Positions 7,084-49,146 of a stretch of DNA of 64,000 nt are shown piece by piece. A program made the translations under genes and the position numbers. The notes beneath the pieces are model-generated. The model was given only the letters and a program-made list of their open reading frames with translations, did no database searches and was not told where the DNA came from. The stretch covers positions 1,841,041-1,905,040 of the forward strand of contig NZ_CP087952.1 in NCBI RefSeq assembly GCF_028752835.1, in the 5' to 3' direction. How positions within the stretch are numbered: the first letter of the stretch is position 1; every line of letters starts with the position of its first letter. This DNA is from Desulfosarcina sp. BuS5. GTDB taxonomy: Bacteria; Desulfobacterota; Desulfobacteria; Desulfobacterales; BuS5.

Positions 7084-8728
7084 GTATCTGCTGAATTTCT
7101 TTTTTATGAAAGAAATGCTTTGCTATCCATAGCAGTATATGCCATTTTTTAAATTGCAGCTAAATGGTATTTTAAGCACTCTAAAAAGGATAGGAGGTAT
7201 TCTGATGATAAAAAATACTTTTGAAGAAGTTCTTTCTGATGAATGGGTGAAAGCAAATATAACCAATCCAGTTCAGGAATTGGTTATTATCCGTGGGATA
7301 ATTCCATGGCAAAAAATGATTACAAAGTTGTGTAAATTTTATAACACCAGTCAGGGTGCTTTTGGAAAATCTCTCAGGATGATGACAGCGATTTTGATTT
7401 GTATAAAATACTATCAATTAAGTGATAGGCAAATGGTTAAGCATATAAAAGAAAACCACTATATTCAATATTTTTGTAACATCACAAATGAGGAATTGCA
7501 AACATGCCTGGATCCGAGTTCTATATGTGTATTTCGAAAACGTATAGGTGAAGAAGGTGTTGAAATTATAGAAAAAGAAGTTTTTGAGGTTCTACGCAAA
7601 GCTGGGATAATACAGGGTGATAATGCTATGATAGATTCAAGCGTATTGAAAAATAACGTTATCTATCCAAATGATGTACATTTAATTTTTAAAGCTTTTG
7701 ACAAAATGAAACAATTTGCCGTTTTGCATCAAATCTCCTTGTGGTGGGACAATAATGAAGTAAAAAAATTATGGCGAGAATTTTTTTTGAACAAAAAACA
7801 AAACCGTTTGGAATGGTTACTCAAATTTAATATATTATTTATTCCTGCTCTAAAAATATTTGATAAAAAAGTTGAATCATTAAAGACCACAAAGAAAAAA
7901 CAAATAAAAGCTGACAATATGTTTGCTATTCTTACTATTCTTGAAGCACAAACCTTAGAAAAACTCGAAGGTAAAAAACAGATAAAAAACCGGATTGTAT
8001 CCATTGATGAACCGGATGCCCGCCCGATTGTAAAAGGAAAAGAGCATCCGAAGTGTGAATTCGGCACAACAATGGAAATGACTTTCAATAGGGAAGGATT
8101 CATGATTACCATTGAAAATTTTATCGGTAATCCAAATGATAAAACGCTTTTTGCTGGAACACTCGAACAGTTCAAAAAACGGATGAAAGGCGAACCGGAA
8201 AATATTATTACCGACCTTGGTTACAGAAGCAATGGTAATTTTAAAATTGCAGACAATATCAGTAACGTTTTTTTGGGGCGTAAAAAAGATGTATCCGAAG
8301 AAAAACAGAGTTTTTGCTGTAAAGCCCGTTCAGCAACAGAAGGTTTCATAGCTATTGCAAAAAATATTAGAGGTTTTGGATGCAGTCTTTATAGAGGATT
8401 TGAAGGAGACCGTATATGGTCATTGCTTTGTCAAACCGCTTATAATCTTAAAAAGTTTATTCAGCTTCTAATGGGAGAAAAGATTGAAGAAAAAAAACTG
8501 ATGAAACTCGGGCTGGCATAAGCCGAACAAGGATTTTATCAAAAATAGTTGATTTTAAAAAATATGCGGATAGGAGAGGTGCGTCTATAGGTGTTAACAA
8601 TTTGCCGTTTTTTACCAAAATTCAATTAAAATACCACAAATGAGCTTAAAATTTTAGATTAAAATTCTCTATGATTAATATATGAACAATGCTGATATAC
8701 TATGTTATTATCGAAATTCAGCGGATAC
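7084..8728 (+). mobile_element. Insertion sequence, copy 1 (1645 bp)
   Basis: The ends are GTATCTGCTGAATTTC and the complement of GTATCCGCTGAATTTC, a 16-bp inverted repeat with one mismatch. The flanking 6-bp direct repeats TAATTA (7078-7083 and 8729-8734) give exact boundaries. It encodes one transposase. The left end also forms an internal hairpin (ATTTCTTT/AAAGAAAT) upstream of the gene. The size, single ORF and 6-bp duplication are compatible with the ISDol1 group of unclassified IS; that family placement is from memory and tentative. Confidence 0.93.
7205..8521 (+). CDS. DDE transposase of the 1645-bp IS, copy 1
   Basis: A cut-and-paste transposase of 438 residues. Candidate catalytic acidic residues are D in QGDNAMIDSSVLK, D in ENIITDLGYRSNGN and E in ARSATEGFIAIAKNIRGF, the order and spacing expected for a DDE/RNase H fold. 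Its N-terminal part (about residues 60-130) resembles the DUF772-type domain of IS5/IS1182-like enzymes. I chose the ATG at 7205 because AGGAGG lies 8 bases upstream; an in-frame ATG at 7139 would add 22 residues. The same protein is encoded at 20311, 33317 and 40572. Confidence 0.9.
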   Translation: MIKNTFEEVLSDEWVKANITNPVQELVIIRGIIPWQKMITKLCKFYNTSQGAFGKSLRMMTAILICIKYYQLSDRQMVKHIKENHYIQYFCNITNEELQTCLDPSSICVFRKRIGEEGVEIIEKEVFEVLRKAGIIQGDNAMIDSSVLKNNVIYPNDVHLIFKAFDKMKQFAVLHQISLWWDNNEVKKLWREFFLNKKQNRLEWLLKFNILFIPALKIFDKKVESLKTTKKKQIKADNMFAILTILEAQTLEKLEGKKQIKNRIVSIDEPDARPIVKGKEHPKCEFGTTMEMTFNREGFMITIENFIGNPNDKTLFAGTLEQFKKRMKGEPENIITDLGYRSNGNFKIADNISNVFLGRKKDVSEEKQSFCCKARSATEGFIAIAKNIRGFGCSLYRGFEGDRIWSLLCQTAYNLKKFIQLLMGEKIEEKKLMKLGLA

Positions 8729-20103: not shown

Positions 20104-21748
20104 GTATCCGCTGAATTTCGATAATAACATAGTATATCAGCATTGTTCATATATTAATCATAGAGAATTTTAATCTAAAATTTTAAGCTCATTTGTGGTA
20201 TTTTAATTGAATTTTGGTAAAAAACGGCAAATTGTTAACACCTATAGACGCACCTCTCCTATCCGCATATTTTTTAAAATCAACTATTTTTGATAAAATC
20301 CTTGTTCGGCTTATGCCAGCCCGAGTTTCATCAGTTTTTTTTCTTCAATCTTTTCTCCCATTAGAAGCTGAATAAACTTTTTAAGATTATAAGCGGTTTG
20401 ACAAAGCAATGACCATATACGGTCTCCTTCAAATCCTCTATAAAGACTGCATCCAAAACCTCTAATATTTTTTGCAATAGCTATGAAACCTTCTGTTGCT
20501 GAACGGGCTTTACAGCAAAAACTCTGTTTTTCTTCGGATACATCTTTTTTACGCCCCAAAAAAACGTTACTGATATTGTCTGCAATTTTAAAATTACCAT
20601 TGCTTCTGTAACCAAGGTCGGTAATAATATTTTCCGGTTCGCCTTTCATCCGTTTTTTGAACTGTTCGAGTGTTCCAGCAAAAAGCGTTTTATCATTTGG
20701 ATTACCGATAAAATTTTCAATGGTAATCATGAATCCTTCCCTATTGAAAGTCATTTCCATTGTTGTGCCGAATTCACACTTCGGATGCTCTTTTCCTTTT
20801 ACAATCGGGCGGGCATCCGGTTCATCAATGGATACAATCCGGTTTTTTATCTGTTTTTTACCTTCGAGTTTTTCTAAGGTTTGTGCTTCAAGAATAGTAA
20901 GAATAGCAAACATATTGTCAGCTTTTATTTGTTTTTTCTTTGTGGTCTTTAATGATTCAACTTTTTTATCAAATATTTTTAGAGCAGGAATAAATAATAT
21001 ATTAAATTTGAGTAACCATTCCAAACGGTTTTGTTTTTTGTTCAAAAAAAATTCTCGCCATAATTTTTTTACTTCATTATTGTCCCACCACAAGGAGATT
21101 TGATGCAAAACGGCAAATTGTTTCATTTTGTCAAAAGCTTTAAAAATTAAATGTACATCATTTGGATAGATAACGTTATTTTTCAATACGCTTGAATCTA
21201 TCATAGCATTATCACCCTGTATTATCCCAGCTTTGCGTAGAACCTCAAAAACTTCTTTTTCTATAATTTCAACACCTTCTTCACCTATACGTTTTCGAAA
21301 TACACATATAGAACTCGGATCCAGGCATGTTTGCAATTCCTCATTTGTGATGTTACAAAAATATTGAATATAGTGGTTTTCTTTTATATGCTTAACCATT
21401 TGCCTATCACTTAATTGATAGTATTTTATACAAATCAAAATCGCTGTCATCATCCTGAGAGATTTTCCAAAAGCACCCTGACTGGTGTTATAAAATTTAC
21501 ACAACTTTGTAATCATTTTTTGCCATGGAATTATCCCACGGATAATAACCAATTCCTGAACTGGATTGGTTATATTTGCTTTCACCCATTCATCAGAAAG
21601 AACTTCTTCAAAAGTATTTTTTATCATCAGAATACCTCCTATCCTTTTTAGAGTGCTTAAAATACCATTTAGCTGCAATTTAAAAAATGGCATATACTGC
21701 TATGGATAGCAAAGCATTTCTTTCATAAAAAAGAAATTCAGCAGATAC
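20104..21748 (-). mobile_element. Insertion sequence, copy 2 (1645 bp), inside the Y1 transposase gene
   Basis: Same ends as copy 1. The target duplication TAGATA is at 20098-20103 and 21749-21754. The exact 6-bp duplication and the reconstructable reading frame show a simple insertion. Confidence 0.93.
20311..21627 (-). CDS. DDE transposase of the 1645-bp IS, copy 2
   Basis: Encodes the same protein as 7205-8521, with the same RBS-based start. It is intact and presumably functional. Confidence 0.9.
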   Translation of the reverse strand: MIKNTFEEVLSDEWVKANITNPVQELVIIRGIIPWQKMITKLCKFYNTSQGAFGKSLRMMTAILICIKYYQLSDRQMVKHIKENHYIQYFCNITNEELQTCLDPSSICVFRKRIGEEGVEIIEKEVFEVLRKAGIIQGDNAMIDSSVLKNNVIYPNDVHLIFKAFDKMKQFAVLHQISLWWDNNEVKKLWREFFLNKKQNRLEWLLKFNILFIPALKIFDKKVESLKTTKKKQIKADNMFAILTILEAQTLEKLEGKKQIKNRIVSIDEPDARPIVKGKEHPKCEFGTTMEMTFNREGFMITIENFIGNPNDKTLFAGTLEQFKKRMKGEPENIITDLGYRSNGNFKIADNISNVFLGRKKDVSEEKQSFCCKARSATEGFIAIAKNIRGFGCSLYRGFEGDRIWSLLCQTAYNLKKFIQLLMGEKIEEKKLMKLGLA

Positions 21749-33109: not shown

Positions 33110-34754
33110 GTATCCGCTGAATTTCGATAATAACATAGTATATCAGCATTGTTCATATATTAATCATAGAGAATTTTAATCTAAAATTTTAAGCTCATTT
33201 GTGGTATTTTAATTGAATTTTGGTAAAAAACGGCAAATTGTTAACACCTATAGACGCACCTCTCCTATCCGCATATTTTTTAAAATCAACTATTTTTGAT
33301 AAAATCCTTGTTCGGCTTATGCCAGCCCGAGTTTCATCAGTTTTTTTTCTTCAATCTTTTCTCCCATTAGAAGCTGAATAAACTTTTTAAGATTATAAGC
33401 GGTTTGACAAAGCAATGACCATATACGGTCTCCTTCAAATCCTCTATAAAGACTGCATCCAAAACCTCTAATATTTTTTGCAATAGCTATGAAACCTTCT
33501 GTTGCTGAACGGGCTTTACAGCAAAAACTCTGTTTTTCTTCGGATACATCTTTTTTACGCCCCAAAAAAACGTTACTGATATTGTCTGCAATTTTAAAAT
33601 TACCATTGCTTCTGTAACCAAGGTCGGTAATAATATTTTCCGGTTCGCCTTTCATCCGTTTTTTGAACTGTTCGAGTGTTCCAGCAAAAAGCGTTTTATC
33701 ATTTGGATTACCGATAAAATTTTCAATGGTAATCATGAATCCTTCCCTATTGAAAGTCATTTCCATTGTTGTGCCGAATTCACACTTCGGATGCTCTTTT
33801 CCTTTTACAATCGGGCGGGCATCCGGTTCATCAATGGATACAATCCGGTTTTTTATCTGTTTTTTACCTTCGAGTTTTTCTAAGGTTTGTGCTTCAAGAA
33901 TAGTAAGAATAGCAAACATATTGTCAGCTTTTATTTGTTTTTTCTTTGTGGTCTTTAATGATTCAACTTTTTTATCAAATATTTTTAGAGCAGGAATAAA
34001 TAATATATTAAATTTGAGTAACCATTCCAAACGGTTTTGTTTTTTGTTCAAAAAAAATTCTCGCCATAATTTTTTTACTTCATTATTGTCCCACCACAAG
34101 GAGATTTGATGCAAAACGGCAAATTGTTTCATTTTGTCAAAAGCTTTAAAAATTAAATGTACATCATTTGGATAGATAACGTTATTTTTCAATACGCTTG
34201 AATCTATCATAGCATTATCACCCTGTATTATCCCAGCTTTGCGTAGAACCTCAAAAACTTCTTTTTCTATAATTTCAACACCTTCTTCACCTATACGTTT
34301 TCGAAATACACATATAGAACTCGGATCCAGGCATGTTTGCAATTCCTCATTTGTGATGTTACAAAAATATTGAATATAGTGGTTTTCTTTTATATGCTTA
34401 ACCATTTGCCTATCACTTAATTGATAGTATTTTATACAAATCAAAATCGCTGTCATCATCCTGAGAGATTTTCCAAAAGCACCCTGACTGGTGTTATAAA
34501 ATTTACACAACTTTGTAATCATTTTTTGCCATGGAATTATCCCACGGATAATAACCAATTCCTGAACTGGATTGGTTATATTTGCTTTCACCCATTCATC
34601 AGAAAGAACTTCTTCAAAAGTATTTTTTATCATCAGAATACCTCCTATCCTTTTTAGAGTGCTTAAAATACCATTTAGCTGCAATTTAAAAAATGGCATA
34701 TACTGCTATGGATAGCAAAGCATTTCTTTCATAAAAAAGAAATTCAGCAGATAC
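33110..34754 (-). mobile_element. Insertion sequence, copy 3 (1645 bp), imperfect target duplication
   Basis: Same length and ends as the other copies. The flanks are TATATA (left) and TAAATA (right), differing at one base. It abuts a truncated IS66 remnant on the right. Confidence 0.92.
33317..34633 (-). CDS. DDE transposase of the 1645-bp IS, copy 3
   Basis: Encodes the same protein as 7205-8521; intact, with the same AGGAGG-based start. Confidence 0.9.
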   Translation of the reverse strand: MIKNTFEEVLSDEWVKANITNPVQELVIIRGIIPWQKMITKLCKFYNTSQGAFGKSLRMMTAILICIKYYQLSDRQMVKHIKENHYIQYFCNITNEELQTCLDPSSICVFRKRIGEEGVEIIEKEVFEVLRKAGIIQGDNAMIDSSVLKNNVIYPNDVHLIFKAFDKMKQFAVLHQISLWWDNNEVKKLWREFFLNKKQNRLEWLLKFNILFIPALKIFDKKVESLKTTKKKQIKADNMFAILTILEAQTLEKLEGKKQIKNRIVSIDEPDARPIVKGKEHPKCEFGTTMEMTFNREGFMITIENFIGNPNDKTLFAGTLEQFKKRMKGEPENIITDLGYRSNGNFKIADNISNVFLGRKKDVSEEKQSFCCKARSATEGFIAIAKNIRGFGCSLYRGFEGDRIWSLLCQTAYNLKKFIQLLMGEKIEEKKLMKLGLA

Positions 34755-40364: not shown

Positions 40365-42009
40365 GTATCCGCTGAATTTCGATAATAACATAGTATATCA
40401 GCATTGTTCATATATTAATCATAGAGAATTTTAATCTAAAATTTTAAGCTCATTTGTGGTATTTTAATTGAATTTTGGTAAAAAACGGCAAATTGTTAAC
40501 ACCTATAGACGCACCTCTCCTATCCGCATATTTTTTAAAATCAACTATTTTTGATAAAATCCTTGTTCGGCTTATGCCAGCCCGAGTTTCATCAGTTTTT
40601 TTTCTTCAATCTTTTCTCCCATTAGAAGCTGAATAAACTTTTTAAGATTATAAGCGGTTTGACAAAGCAATGACCATATACGGTCTCCTTCAAATCCTCT
40701 ATAAAGACTGCATCCAAAACCTCTAATATTTTTTGCAATAGCTATGAAACCTTCTGTTGCTGAACGGGCTTTACAGCAAAAACTCTGTTTTTCTTCGGAT
40801 ACATCTTTTTTACGCCCCAAAAAAACGTTACTGATATTGTCTGCAATTTTAAAATTACCATTGCTTCTGTAACCAAGGTCGGTAATAATATTTTCCGGTT
40901 CGCCTTTCATCCGTTTTTTGAACTGTTCGAGTGTTCCAGCAAAAAGCGTTTTATCATTTGGATTACCGATAAAATTTTCAATGGTAATCATGAATCCTTC
41001 CCTATTGAAAGTCATTTCCATTGTTGTGCCGAATTCACACTTCGGATGCTCTTTTCCTTTTACAATCGGGCGGGCATCCGGTTCATCAATGGATACAATC
41101 CGGTTTTTTATCTGTTTTTTACCTTCGAGTTTTTCTAAGGTTTGTGCTTCAAGAATAGTAAGAATAGCAAACATATTGTCAGCTTTTATTTGTTTTTTCT
41201 TTGTGGTCTTTAATGATTCAACTTTTTTATCAAATATTTTTAGAGCAGGAATAAATAATATATTAAATTTGAGTAACCATTCCAAACGGTTTTGTTTTTT
41301 GTTCAAAAAAAATTCTCGCCATAATTTTTTTACTTCATTATTGTCCCACCACAAGGAGATTTGATGCAAAACGGCAAATTGTTTCATTTTGTCAAAAGCT
41401 TTAAAAATTAAATGTACATCATTTGGATAGATAACGTTATTTTTCAATACGCTTGAATCTATCATAGCATTATCACCCTGTATTATCCCAGCTTTGCGTA
41501 GAACCTCAAAAACTTCTTTTTCTATAATTTCAACACCTTCTTCACCTATACGTTTTCGAAATACACATATAGAACTCGGATCCAGGCATGTTTGCAATTC
41601 CTCATTTGTGATGTTACAAAAATATTGAATATAGTGGTTTTCTTTTATATGCTTAACCATTTGCCTATCACTTAATTGATAGTATTTTATACAAATCAAA
41701 ATCGCTGTCATCATCCTGAGAGATTTTCCAAAAGCACCCTGACTGGTGTTATAAAATTTACACAACTTTGTAATCATTTTTTGCCATGGAATTATCCCAC
41801 GGATAATAACCAATTCCTGAACTGGATTGGTTATATTTGCTTTCACCCATTCATCAGAAAGAACTTCTTCAAAAGTATTTTTTATCATCAGAATACCTCC
41901 TATCCTTTTTAGAGTGCTTAAAATACCATTTAGCTGCAATTTAAAAAATGGCATATACTGCTATGGATAGCAAAGCATTTCTTTCATAAAAAAGAAATTC
42001 AGCAGATAC
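40365..42009 (-). mobile_element. Insertion sequence, copy 4 (1645 bp)
   Basis: Ends as in the other copies. Target duplication TATTTA at 40359-40364 and 42010-42015. It is inserted between the HNH gene and the last codons of the ATP-grasp gene. Confidence 0.93.
40572..41888 (-). CDS. DDE transposase of the 1645-bp IS, copy 4
   Basis: Encodes the same protein as 7205-8521; intact, with the same AGGAGG-based start. Confidence 0.9.
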   Translation of the reverse strand: MIKNTFEEVLSDEWVKANITNPVQELVIIRGIIPWQKMITKLCKFYNTSQGAFGKSLRMMTAILICIKYYQLSDRQMVKHIKENHYIQYFCNITNEELQTCLDPSSICVFRKRIGEEGVEIIEKEVFEVLRKAGIIQGDNAMIDSSVLKNNVIYPNDVHLIFKAFDKMKQFAVLHQISLWWDNNEVKKLWREFFLNKKQNRLEWLLKFNILFIPALKIFDKKVESLKTTKKKQIKADNMFAILTILEAQTLEKLEGKKQIKNRIVSIDEPDARPIVKGKEHPKCEFGTTMEMTFNREGFMITIENFIGNPNDKTLFAGTLEQFKKRMKGEPENIITDLGYRSNGNFKIADNISNVFLGRKKDVSEEKQSFCCKARSATEGFIAIAKNIRGFGCSLYRGFEGDRIWSLLCQTAYNLKKFIQLLMGEKIEEKKLMKLGLA

Positions 42010-43785: not shown

Positions 43786-44870
43786 TTAAATGTTGGCGAA
43801 TAAAAGAAGCAATCCTATTGTTGCCAATGCTGCTCCTGCAAATGTTTCAATAGAGTGCTCCACAAGAATTGCCGTCTTGTTTTTTTGGGCTATGTTAAAT
43901 GAGGCAAGTTTGCCTGATATAGCGATTAAAACAACAATTGACATGGTAAGAGCCATGCCCATAGAAATCATTATCCCTAGTATTATCCCTAAAGCGATTA
44001 AATCGAGTGATAAGGCAAATAACATGACCATCACTACGCCCGGACACGGGATGCATCCGACTACAAAAGCAGATAAGATAGGGTTAACATACTGTCTGTT
44101 TTGTCTATTATCAAAATTGCGTTGGTTTTTTCCATCATTTTTTATTAGTTTGTAAAGACTGTTACCTAAGTTGAGCGATTAGCTGTTAGTAATTAGCTGT
44201 TAGCCTTGAAAAATCAAGGTATTACATCAGTAAAAAATAACATCCAATGAGTGAAAATGCGTAATCGCAAAACATCTTGTAATTATTAAGCTAAGAGCTA
44301 ACAGCTAAAGGCTAACCGCTTAGTTTAGGTGTTAATAAAAATTCCTAAACCTAAACAAGATATAATGCTGTAACTGATGATTTGGGTTATGAGTGTAACA
44401 TGTTCAAGATTATTTATGATACTCGCGTTTAGAACAACTCGTATCAAAAGTACAAAAACAATGCCTGAAACGCCATAAAACAGCGCTATGAAATTACCGA
44501 ACAGTATACCATGTTTATATGATGGTTGTTGAGATAATACATATGACAAGGTTATGGCTTTGCCATGCCCTGGACCGGCTGAATGGATTACTCCATAAAT
44601 AAATGCAGCCATAATAAGAAAAAATAATGGCCGGATACTATCAGTAACTTTGGCTTGCCGAATTAGATATGTTATTTTTTCTTTCAACTGATATTGCCAT
44701 GTAATGATTTTGACGAAAAGTTTATTTTTAAAAGCAGGCCCGGGCGCGGTATGCTGTTTTTCCGGTTGTACGGTAAACGGGTTGGAGGCGCTTGCCAAAG
44801 GAATCGGTGGAAAGGGGAGTAATGCAATCGGAAGCAGTAATAAAACCAGAATGGTGATAGATTTTTTCAT
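43786..44870 (-). pseudogene. NicO/RcnA-type nickel/cobalt exporter gene, interrupted by a MITE
   Basis: A polytopic membrane transporter in two pieces. The N-terminal piece (44870 to 44325) has a signal-like start, then YGVIHSAGPGHGKAITLSYVLS with the conserved HSAGPGHGK motif. The C-terminal piece carries FVVGCIPCPGVVMVMLFALS, typical of NicO/RcnA. Between them lies a 167-bp palindromic element (44164-44330) flanked by GTT direct repeats. Removing the element and one GTT gives an uninterrupted frame reading LGIFIN-SLYKLIKNDGKN. The reading frame stops inside the element border (NT-stop). The N-terminus overlaps the DUF1007 stop by 4 bp. Confidence 0.88.
44164..44330. mobile_element. 167-bp MITE with GTT target duplication, inside the NicO gene
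   Basis: Imperfect terminal inverted repeats ACCTAAGTTGAGCGATTAGC and (complement side) ACCTAAACTAAGCGGTTAGC, rich in TTAGCTGTTAGC-type repeats. No ORF. The flanking direct repeats GTT (44161-44163 and 44331-44333) mark a 3-bp duplication. Confidence 0.88.
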
Positions 44871-45493
44871 TGCTTTATGCGAAAATTTAAAAACAAGGCC
44901 CAAGGATTAATCATATCATAGTATATTGATGTTGATTCGTCTTCTTTAATAGCAGTTCTTACTTCAAATGCTTCAGAATTATCTAATGCCGCCGGATTTT
45001 TTTCTGCAAAGAAAATAGCACTATAATAAGATGGATCATAAACGGCAACAGTAATATTTTTAAAATTATTTGTGGCAGTTACATGGCAAGGCACAAAAAA
45101 CTTGTAACTCAACTTGTTATTATTTAAAATAGCTGAAAAATTTTGAATAAATTTGACCTTAAAAGGTTTTTCGCCAATTTTTATAAAAGTAAAGTAGTTG
45201 TAGTTGGCAAGATATGAAAAAGCCTCTTTTTCTATTAGCACAATCTCATTTTTTTCTAAAAATCCATTTTGATTTTTATCATAATCACCAGCGATCATAC
45301 CGGCAAACATCTCATCAAATTTCCAATGAATATTAAAGCCTGCAAGCCCTTTATCATCAAAAACAATTTTTATCCGATTAACAATAAATACATGCGGGTG
45401 AGATCTGGAAACACCGCAGAATATTGATAGAATAGTAAGGCTTATAACGGAAATAATTATAAGGTTTGTTTTTTTTGGCACAATGCTGTTCAT
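44867..45493 (-). CDS. DUF1007 periplasmic protein (partner of NicO exporter)
   Basis: A protein of 208 residues with a signal-like N-terminus and SHPHVFIVNRIKIVFDDKGLAGFNIHWKFDEMFAGMIAGDYDKNQNG, the start typical of DUF1007. The DYDKNQNGFL stretch resembles a calcium-binding loop and the SHPHVF motif may bind metal. DUF1007 genes commonly sit directly before NicO/RcnA-like nickel/cobalt exporters, as here (4-bp overlap). With the exporter interrupted, the pair is probably non-functional. Confidence 0.82.
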   Translation of the reverse strand: MNSIVPKKTNLIIISVISLTILSIFCGVSRSHPHVFIVNRIKIVFDDKGLAGFNIHWKFDEMFAGMIAGDYDKNQNGFLEKNEIVLIEKEAFSYLANYNYFTFIKIGEKPFKVKFIQNFSAILNNNKLSYKFFVPCHVTATNNFKNITVAVYDPSYYSAIFFAEKNPAALDNSEAFEVRTAIKEDESTSIYYDMINPWALFLNFRIKQ

Positions 45494-47634: not shown

Positions 47635-48281
47635 GTCTTAGACCCAGCCGGATGGAGGCGAAGGGTATAGCGGTATTACAACGGGGTATCGGTGACGGTG
47701 CTTCGGAAGGCAGTAGCCCTGCTGAGGCAGGGTACCGCGAAAGTACGGGGTGACGAACAGAAATCGAGTCAGGCGTGCATGAGTGGGACGAGCCTGCAAC
47801 ACAAGGCAAAGTCCTCTATCCATTATAAGCTCTGTCCGTATACTCGGCGCCCACGTATTGAAAGACATGTGTTTACCCCGGGAGGTCTTCCATATGCCTT
47901 TTGAGAAGTCGCGTGCGACGGAATTTTGGCTGAGAACAGGGCAACCTGCTCTGACCGCATGTGAGAAGTCAGCAGAGGGCATAGTAGCCGTAGGAGAAAC
48001 GAGCCGTGGATACCACGAAGGACTCACCCCGGCGAAGGCCTGAACGGTGCCCGCACCGAATGGTACGGGTAAATGGTTGTGGTGAGAGTATGGATGAATT
48101 ACTTATTTGCATACTGCAGCAGGAGCTGAAATGCCAATAACGTACGAATTCTGAAAACCCGGTAAAATCGGTGGGATTTCTCACACCCGATTTTATCTTT
48201 ACCAGCCGAACCGCCGTATACGCGATCCGTATGTACGGTGCTGTGGGAGGGGCGCTTAGTAATGGGCGTCCCTATCCCTAT
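47568..48281 (+). mobile_element. ORF-less group II intron, class C type
   Basis: Starts GTGTGCCGGGCACGGCAC, the class C 5' end. Domain I/II marks include GGAAGGCAGTAGCC, CAAAGTCCTCTATCC, ACCCCGGGAGGTCT and AGAAGTCAGCAGAGG. Domain V is at about 48209-48244 (AACCGCCGTATACGCGATCC ... GTACGGT) and domain VI at 48245-48281 (GGGAGGGGCGC paired with GCGTCCC-TA-TCCC, bulged A near the end). No reverse transcriptase gene is present: domain IV is only about 110 bp. It is antisense to all the genes around it, as expected for introns that target attC sites. Confidence 0.85.
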
Positions 48282-49146
48282 ATGTGACTTTTTTTGTTTT
48301 CCTTCTGCAAGTTACAGCCAATAATCTTTTCTGGGCTATATCCAAATATTCTGCATTATTATCAATACCAACAAAACTTCTACTTAATTTTTTACACACA
48401 ACTCCTGTTGTACCACTGCCGCAAAACGGATCAAAAACCAAATCACCAATATTACTTGATGCAACTACAGCTCTCTTAATAATTTCTTCTGGTTTTTGTG
48501 TCGGGTGTTTACCGAATACTTTTTCAGAACGATCTACTGCTGGCAATTTCCATATATCTCTCCATACTGATTTCATTGGCTCTCTATTTGAAATCATTTT
48601 AAGCATATCATGATTAAATATATGTTTAGAGGATTTTGTTTTTGATGCCCAAATAAGATGTTCAGAAGCATGAACAAAATATTTTTTACTTAAATTAGGC
48701 GGAGGATTTTTCTTTTCCCAAACTATGTTATTTAATATTTTAAAACCCAACTCTTGCAAAGCAAATCCAACAGAAAAAATATTATGAAATGTTCCACAAA
48801 CCCAAATTGTGGCATTCTTTTTCAAGATACGTTGACACTCGGATAACCATTTTTTGTTATACGCATGAATTTCATTAATTTTTTTTGATTTATCCCATTC
48901 TCCTTTATTTACATTTTGCATTTTTCCACTATGACAAGTTATACCGCCTGAAGATAAAAAGTATGGGGGGTCAGCAAAAATTAGATCCACACAATTATCA
49001 GGTATGTTATTAAAGAATGAGAATGTGTCTAAGTTATAGAGCTTTATTTTGTTTGTTACATCATAGTAAAATGGTGAAACTGAACTCTCCGCAACCATAT
49101 TTTGTTGCTCAAAATCAATTATATTATCAGATATATAGTATCTCAT
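48256..49146 (-). CDS. DNA adenine/cytosine-N4 methyltransferase (C-terminus from intron)
   Basis: An amino-methyltransferase of 296 residues. Motif IV is DLIFADPPYFLS and motif I is VFDPFCGSGTTGVVCKKL near the C-terminus, the beta-class order. Other typical parts are KHPTQKPEEIIKRAV and NNIVWEKKNPPPN. The last codons (RDRDAHY-stop) are read from intron domain VI on the other strand; without the intron the frame would end VTF-like at KVT followed by TAA. It is part of a restriction-modification module with the two genes upstream. Confidence 0.88.
   Translation of the reverse strand: MRYYISDNIIDFEQQNMVAESSVSPFYYDVTNKIKLYNLDTFSFFNNIPDNCVDLIFADPPYFLSSGGITCHSGKMQNVNKGEWDKSKKINEIHAYNKKWLSECQRILKKNATIWVCGTFHNIFSVGFALQELGFKILNNIVWEKKNPPPNLSKKYFVHASEHLIWASKTKSSKHIFNHDMLKMISNREPMKSVWRDIWKLPAVDRSEKVFGKHPTQKPEEIIKRAVVASSNIGDLVFDPFCGSGTTGVVCKKLSRSFVGIDNNAEYLDIAQKRLLAVTCRRKTKKVTYRDRDAHY

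Follow-up and report, generated by a model that had tools for sequence, protein, structure and literature searches.

Within the 64,000-nucleotide stretch of the Desulfosarcina sp. BuS5 chromosome analyzed here (the window), a gene of the nickel/cobalt exporter type (NicO) is split by a 167-bp insert (Table 1). An earlier note on this DNA had described the DUF1007 gene beside it as intact, which holds (208 aa), and an Era-type GTPase gene (MMR_HSR1 plus KH_2) follows NicO. The 5' half is a 192-aa open reading frame (ORF) whose frame stops within the insert and that matches PF03824 at 39.3 bits (cut-off, 27.7), and the 3' half aligns with a nickel/cobalt efflux model at 35 bits, far under that model's cut-off of 195. 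The frame without 170 bp runs for 948 nt (1118 - 170) from the TTG at 44903, or 316 codons including the stop, as calculated in the earlier note, which had proposed that precise removal rejoins the gene (GIFIN-SLYKL); an ATG at 44870 is a plausible alternative start.

Table 1. The interrupted NicO gene, its insert, and the neighboring gene (positions in the window)
Feature	Positions	Strand	Basis
IS1380-type MITE, 167 bp	44164..44330		Genome copies, shared ends, duplication
Target-site duplication GTT, left	44161..44163		Sequence; empty site in G001
Target-site duplication GTT, right	44331..44333		Sequence
Left terminal inverted repeat ACCTAAGTTGAGCG	44164..44177	+	End comparison with 1920-bp IS
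Left TTAGCNN heptamer array	44179..44204	+	Repeat reading of MITE
MITE core, no ORF	44205..44289		Shuffle comparison run on 44208-44290
Right inverted TTAGCNN heptamer array	44290..44315	-	Repeat reading of MITE
Right terminal inverted repeat, minus strand = ACCTAAACTAAGCG	44317..44330	-	End comparison
Split NicO (nickel/cobalt exporter type), 5' half	44331..44903	-	Profile match, open frames
Split NicO, 3' half	43786..44163	-	Profile alignment, open frames
DUF1007 gene, intact, beside NicO	44867..45493	-	Profile match

Comparison with relatives supports this reconstruction. The 5' half is matched in 13 of 58 related genomes, and in one of the same genus (G001) NicO occupies the same place as a single open frame of 317 aa, 75% identical across the 192-aa piece, with a GTPase gene similar to the Era-type one of the window following it. 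The insertion point reads GIFIKSLYKL in G001 and GIFIN-SLYKL in the window, and the DNA alignment shows 170 extra bases here with flanks that align on both sides, so that G001 carries the empty site and the gene was split in this lineage. The open frames of G001 and of four more distant relatives (L299, L300, L301, and L305) were also read, and at none of them is the insert's sequence part of a longer gene. A genome search with the 192-aa piece returned no second NicO gene (E ≤ 0.001), and NicO function has presumably been lost through the insertion.

That the insert is a miniature inverted-repeat transposable element (MITE), as the earlier note had it, is practically certain. Both copies of the GTT direct repeat are present, and the terminal inverted repeats described from the sequence read ACCTAAGTTGAGCG and CGCTTAGTTTAGGT. 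A search of the whole genome (4,175,088 bases in 2 contigs) returned a best non-self copy with 99% identity over 166 of 170 query bases and two further, shorter copies at 89% and 91%, so this is a multicopy repeat rather than a chance resemblance; there are four substantial copies in this genome including that in the window, and related ones in G002 and G026 that follow the same plan. The end sequence occurs 26 times in this genome at up to three mismatches, against four for a reversed control. Rfam at gathering thresholds gives no match within the MITE.

The window holds no matching transposase, as had been stated, and the proposed search for an insertion sequence (IS) with the same ends located one elsewhere on the chromosome, in two 1920-bp copies (C1:2285494-2287413 and 3890290-3892209) that differ at 1 of 1920 positions; parts of it alone are present at several more places. 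It encodes a 461-aa transposase matching NF033539 at 216.3 bits (cut-off, 180) and PF13701 at 95.8 bits (cut-off, 34.7); the IS1380 family is assigned from the transposase only, and "IS1380-type" as applied to the MITE refers to its ends. The first 17 bp of the MITE are identical to the left end of this IS, and the insert is thus a nonautonomous element with the ends of a resident IS1380-family IS, likely moved in trans by the IS1380-type transposase. With near-identical copies of both, the MITE and its presumed driver look recently active.

The IS1380 family makes target duplications of 4 to 5 bp. We examined 26 elements from this genome, G002, G026, and G017, of which 24 have paired ends, and find a 3-bp duplication in 12 of these 24 and in one of the two full IS copies (TAT; the other has none), and 4 bp in one element; at least three of the paired ends (L315, L324, and L329) look spurious, and none of those has a duplication. 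Either this is a departure from the family figure or the figure does not cover this branch. Fourteen of the 24 elements are 146, 153, 160, or 167 bp long (one of the 14 is without heptamers), three are 168 bp, and seven have other lengths. The element in the window thus resembles bacterial IS1380-family MITEs in being short, ORF-less, multicopy, bounded by the ends of a resident IS, and flanked by a target duplication, but differs in the 3-bp duplication, in the inverted heptamer arrays inside it, and in lengths that vary mostly in 7-nt steps. Its core resembles a second 167-bp element that lacks heptamers (0 of 500 shuffles reach the score). Descent of the core from the parent IS was considered and is unsupported, as 46 of 500 shuffles reach that score.

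Two further observations concern this family. The parent IS, the second, heptamer-less 167-bp element, and several MITE cores (L057/L058, L059, and L311-L328) all show a CACCC..GGGTG palindrome, possibly a binding site. In G017 the end pattern has 26 matches, which form a large family sharing these IS1380-type ends; almost all continue with GATTGTC or similar rather than with heptamers, and a heptamer is present in 1 of the 26.

Between its ends the MITE carries TTAGCNN units, in forward orientation on the left side and inverted on the right side, in arrays that are 80% complementary over 25 nt. A search for an element rich in TTAGCTGTTAGC, suggested in the earlier note, yielded both the MITE family and a heptamer repeat that also lies outside this family. 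The genome has 141 occurrences of TTAGCNNTTAGC and 8 of a reversed control. Among the matches listed, we read 46 places with TTAGC heptamers or weaker relatives, and clustering of 39 with the heptamers masked gave a group of 28 (which by eye combines two MITE-like families), four IS1380-type MITEs, four places with an intervening sequence protein (IVP) gene or its remnant, and three singles. The heptamer is therefore not a property of one MITE; three settings at least share it in this genome, namely IS1380-type MITEs, the large B/C cluster, and the IVP gene together with its remnants. The triple TTAGCNNTTAGCNNTTAGC is distributed very unevenly, being found in 10 of 58 relatives, with counts of 63 in this genome, 37 in G002, 47 in G003, and 50 in G026.

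IVPs are four-helix bundles of the 23S-rRNA "intervening sequence protein" family. The IVP gene at C1:2003717 lies between TTAGC arrays and matches PF05635 at 140.6 and 141 bits (cut-off, 33.8) and PDB 2gsc at an E value of 3.9e-24; PF05635 is the sole Pfam match above threshold, with bAvd under its cut-off (24.8 bits versus 40). This full copy, like the MITE in NicO, is located outside 23S rRNA, with an ABC ATPase gene on one side (PF00005, 109.1 bits) and a probable ABC-2 permease gene on the other (PF12679, 20 bits, under its cut-off), and has no IS1380 ends. Remnants of the ORF with TTAGC arrays are present at C1:60.9k, 503.9k, and 1690.4k, and that at 1690.4k is bounded by IS1380-type ends, of which the left is damaged, with a 3-bp duplication, ATC. 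No IVP remnant is visible in the core of the MITE. Three other IVP loci in this genome have different surroundings: a 7-nt repeat GACCTCY at one, 9-nt repeats beside another, and an AT-rich 7-nt repeat at threshold at the third, which is a broken gene. Among the best 80 of 585 loci from public genomes, the closest two IVPs, at 87% and 76% identity, also have TTAGC heptamers upstream.

Arrays of this kind are common beside IVP genes. PF05635 is matched in 42 of 58 relatives, and the flanks that we read commonly carry short inverted tandem repeats whose motif varies between loci. Over 144 loci, 168 of 285 IVP flanks are periodic, compared with 50 of 816 flanks of other ORFs and 45 of 472 intergenic windows, a six- to tenfold excess; the period is 7 in 135 of the 168, and at least one flank is periodic at 111 of the 144 loci, with about 4 in 10 flanks having no array at threshold. 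Some of these loci are closely related and the counts are not independent events. Four loci cut by contig ends (L128, L129, L131, and L137) are included here; without them, at 140 loci, the counts are 165/278, 49/809, and 43/462. Also left out were fragments (L096/L097), duplicates (L237 and L250, of L135 and L134), and multiple or partial loci (L239, L265, and L268-L271), and 32 of the 140 loci come from five IVP-rich genomes chosen after the pattern was seen. In a separate check on loci chosen by HMM, 25 of 32 have one or more periodic flanks, and periodicity is seen in 40 of 63 IVP flanks, 5 of 96 flanks of other ORFs, and 11 of 98 intergenic windows. In public genomes, scanned with an alignment of four IVPs (one of nine being too diverse), 59 of 80 loci reach 20 or more matches out of 28 at one constant shift in one or both flanks, versus 58 of 1293 control windows; these 80 are the best of 585 confirmed loci, nearest to the query rather than a random sample, and their control windows are mostly coding, gene-flank and intergenic controls having been used in the 144-locus count.

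The arrays also tend to be inverted. When the upstream flank is compared with the reverse complement of the downstream flank of the same locus, 39 of 78 loci exceed 99% of mismatched pairs, and 18 of 78 exceed the 99% cross-pair level when the flanks are compared as direct repeats. On the coding strand, upstream arrays are G-rich in 33 of 44 with non-zero skew and downstream arrays are C-rich in 27 of 36. By record titles, to which we assigned phylum names that we take to be correct, the array-bearing loci belong to Desulfobacterota, Chloroflexota, Planctomycetota, Bacteroidota, Acidobacteriota, Verrucomicrobiota, Cyanobacteria, Poribacteria, Fibrobacterota, Firmicutes, Ignavibacteriota, Gammaproteobacteria, WOR-3, and one archaeal bin, many of the records being metagenome bins; the sole Nitrospira locus falls below threshold. 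In more than 10 phyla, IVP genes outside rRNA thus often have inverted arrays of short repeats, mostly 7 nt long, at their sides. Co-inheritance of heptamer and protein is weak, with heptamer likeness tracking protein likeness at a Mantel r of 0.13 (1 of 999 permutations as high; L139, which starts at a contig end, was at a wrong position in this set and in the dN/dS set below). We note separately that L137, L188, L217, L134, and L251 represent one IVP lineage in different genomes with an 8-nt repeat (period 8 was measured in L137, L188, and L217), and some of them have outer end motifs TCTCC..TTAGTTG in common.

Dispersal at places with no IVP match is seen for another IVP heptamer as well, though no simple rule holds. 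In G044, an IVP gene is flanked by CGATTNN, whose triple is present 43 times, versus once for a reversed control; of 18 loci read among 30 fetched, 16 have no IVP match in the sequence fetched, one is the IVP locus, and the remaining one matches IVP weakly (E value, 3.9e-4), and inverted arrays are seen at many of the 18. Allowing one mismatch, GTTACAG, an IVP heptamer of G044, has three matches in that genome, all at its own locus, together with 14 in G035 and three in G014, and TTCACGG has 19 matches in the genome of its IVP (G026), 28 in G044, one in G028, and none in the other 55 genomes. No IVP match was found in G035 despite its 14 GTTACAG matches, or in G003 despite its TTAGC triples, G003 being 66% complete.

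Some IVP units have the appearance of mobile elements. Terminal repeats with 6- to 9-bp duplications surround complete IVP units at 6 of 140 loci and at 0 of 145 shifted controls, in a search that was loosened after L261 and L266 had been seen by eye, so that its threshold was not blind; L173 is a weak case among the six, and L139 at its corrected position has no bounded unit and leaves the count unchanged. L266 has ends GTAACTACTCAGGC and ATAACTACTCAGGC and a perfect 8-bp duplication, AAATTGAA, and L261 has similar ends and an 8-bp duplication with one mismatch; these ends look like those of IS66. A stricter search for repeats plus duplications was set aside, at least three of its four hits in 140 loci being self-matching heptamer repeats (controls, 0 of 405). 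G019 carries two IVP copies that are 94.7% identical over 545 bp and end beyond the repeats, and IVP homologues are present on 35 plasmid records, 13 of them predicted to be conjugative. From 40 IVP pairs with at least 70% identity, 23 were dropped for saturated dS, and the remaining 17 have dN/dS of 0.03 to 0.27 (dS is below 1 in 7 of the 17); the ORFs appear, from these ratios, to be under purifying selection.

Taking these findings together, we regard it as quite probable that the insert in NicO is the heptamer hairpin of an IVP-type module carried by IS1380 ends, and its link to such a module, taken by itself, as reasonably likely. The heptamer hairpins would be a module of the IVP gene family, which would become enclosed between the terminal repeats of ordinary transposons and be carried about by these. 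Loss of the ORF would then give a cargo-less heptamer MITE such as that in the window, and the arrays may subsequently lengthen or shorten through slippage or recombination. Several results speak against this reading: recognizable ends with duplications are present at just 6 of 140 IVP loci, the MITE core has neither a visible IVP remnant nor a significant match to the IS, the full IVP copy of this genome lacks IS1380 ends, G003 and G035 are rich in heptamers but gave no IVP match, GTTACAG stays at its own locus in G044, TTCACGG is more frequent in G044 than in its own genome, heptamer and protein likeness are weakly correlated, and about 4 in 10 IVP flanks have no array at threshold.

Three other explanations deserve consideration. 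The arrays could act as RNA, pairing across the ORF into a stem like those of the 23S intervening sequences cut by RNase III, which would let operons tolerate the insertion; RNase III is described as excising the intervening sequence of Coxiella (PMC4990558). The inversion of the arrays suits this idea, and the upstream-downstream RNA duplex is under the 5% cross-pair level at 22 of 78 loci, but we consider it doubtful, since the dispersed arrays without an IVP match in G044 are common (16 of the 18 loci read) and the sense strand has no advantage over the antisense strand. A preference for the RNA sense is indeed rejected, the sense strand being the stronger in 32 of 78 loci.

We find it rather more doubtful that the element is a plain MITE whose heptamers are a slippage-prone satellite unrelated to IVP, with TTAGC captured by chance and spread by transposition. 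Most of the TTAGC loci that we read are copies of a few MITE-like families (one cluster takes in 28 of the 39), which leaves few independent captures; the core is unrelated to IVP as far as seen; and some genomes in which no IVP gene was found (G003 and G035) are dense in heptamers. Heptamers are also over-represented in many bacteria, and polymerase slippage has been proposed as the source in a section of PMC4692102. It does not sit well, however, with one heptamer in at least three contexts of a single genome, with the six- to tenfold array excess beside IVP genes, or with the IVP remnant that carries the same heptamer inside an IS1380-type MITE.

It is unlikely that the arrays or hairpins are pre-existing targets into which IVP genes insert rather than parts of the element: this would account for the motif differences between loci and for the differing heptamers of close IVPs (the 11 most alike pairs, 76 to 96% identical, share 4 to 6 of 7 heptamer positions where unrelated ones average about 3.5, a range that understates the likeness of the TTAGC trio L093/L157/L158, for which arrays in opposite orientation were compared), but a plain tandem array split by an insertion would leave direct arrays, against which the excess of inverted over direct flanks speaks, and duplications, where seen, fall outside the arrays; a variant in which the hairpin itself is the target is possible.

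The reading of an IVP-type hairpin module carried by transposon ends could be extended to the protein. An active role of the IVP seems improbable, and it is likewise only a tentative proposal that IVP genes and inverted heptamer hairpins are widespread selfish elements, in which the IVP would recognize its own heptamer and spread or amplify hairpins, including ORF-less ones, which then enter unrelated transposon ends. If true, this would be REPIN-like behavior by an unrelated protein, and could explain the 23S rRNA intervening sequences and part of the bacterial excess of 7-nt repeats. RAYT/REPIN systems are alike in having a protein gene flanked by inverted repeats that are also dispersed as gene-less hairpins, but RAYTs are HUH tyrosine transposases (Y1_Tnp), whereas the IVP is a four-helix bundle with no such domain in the Pfam scan.

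Parts of this picture have precedents. The Coxiella 23S rRNA intervening sequence has GACAGAT heptamers upstream of the S23 ORF, in two or three sets by strain (in the sections of PMC4990558 on this locus), and the link between heptamer and IVP is therefore already known at one locus; the same sections cite Burgin 1990 for the suggestion that intervening sequences are remnants of transposition, call their origin unclear, and give no known function for the family, of which structures have been solved. The elements described here are like those 23S intervening sequences in the IVP-family ORF, the heptamers of variable copy number, and the stem-forming ends, but they differ in that the IVP lies outside rRNA, in arrays that are commonly on both sides, inverted, and with locus-specific motifs, and in the few IVP units that have transposon ends and duplications. 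Dispersed heptamers are reported as TAACTGA in Beggiatoaceae (in part of PMC4679880) and as GGGAATC in Xanthomonas and GGGGA(T/C)T in Nostoc (in part of PMC4692102, which describes heptameric repeats as over-represented in many bacterial genomes and little studied), and these are also 7-nt arrays with a patchy distribution over taxa. Term searches in parts of PMC4679880 and PMC4692102 returned no mention of four-helix-bundle proteins, nor, in the former, of S23 or intervening sequences. The Avd proteins of diversity-generating retroelements belong to a related fold family (in part of PMC10053308), and the IVP of this genome matches bAvd weakly; a 23S rRNA IVP is named in a figure legend of a CRISPR-discovery paper (PMC10910872). 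We found no general link of heptamer arrays to IVP genes in the open-access literature searched. The MITE alone is ordinary, and its importance lies in the pattern that joins the IVP family, over many phyla, to inverted and mostly 7-nt arrays; this is a concrete and testable link between the origin of 23S intervening sequences and heptameric repeats, and a new lead on how the IVP family spreads.

Other mobile DNA is present in the window. A 460-aa transposase ORF (DUF772) occurs in four copies, at 7139-8521 (+) and at 20311-21693, 33317-34699, and 40572-41954 (-), with 0 nucleotide differences over 1383 bases within 64 kb; the identity extends about 55 bp upstream and at least 150 bp downstream of the ORF and points to a very recent burst. 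Adjacent Rfam matches to group II introns (RF02001 and RF01998) are located at 47686-48023 (+), with a DNA methylase gene at 48256-49146 on the opposite strand.
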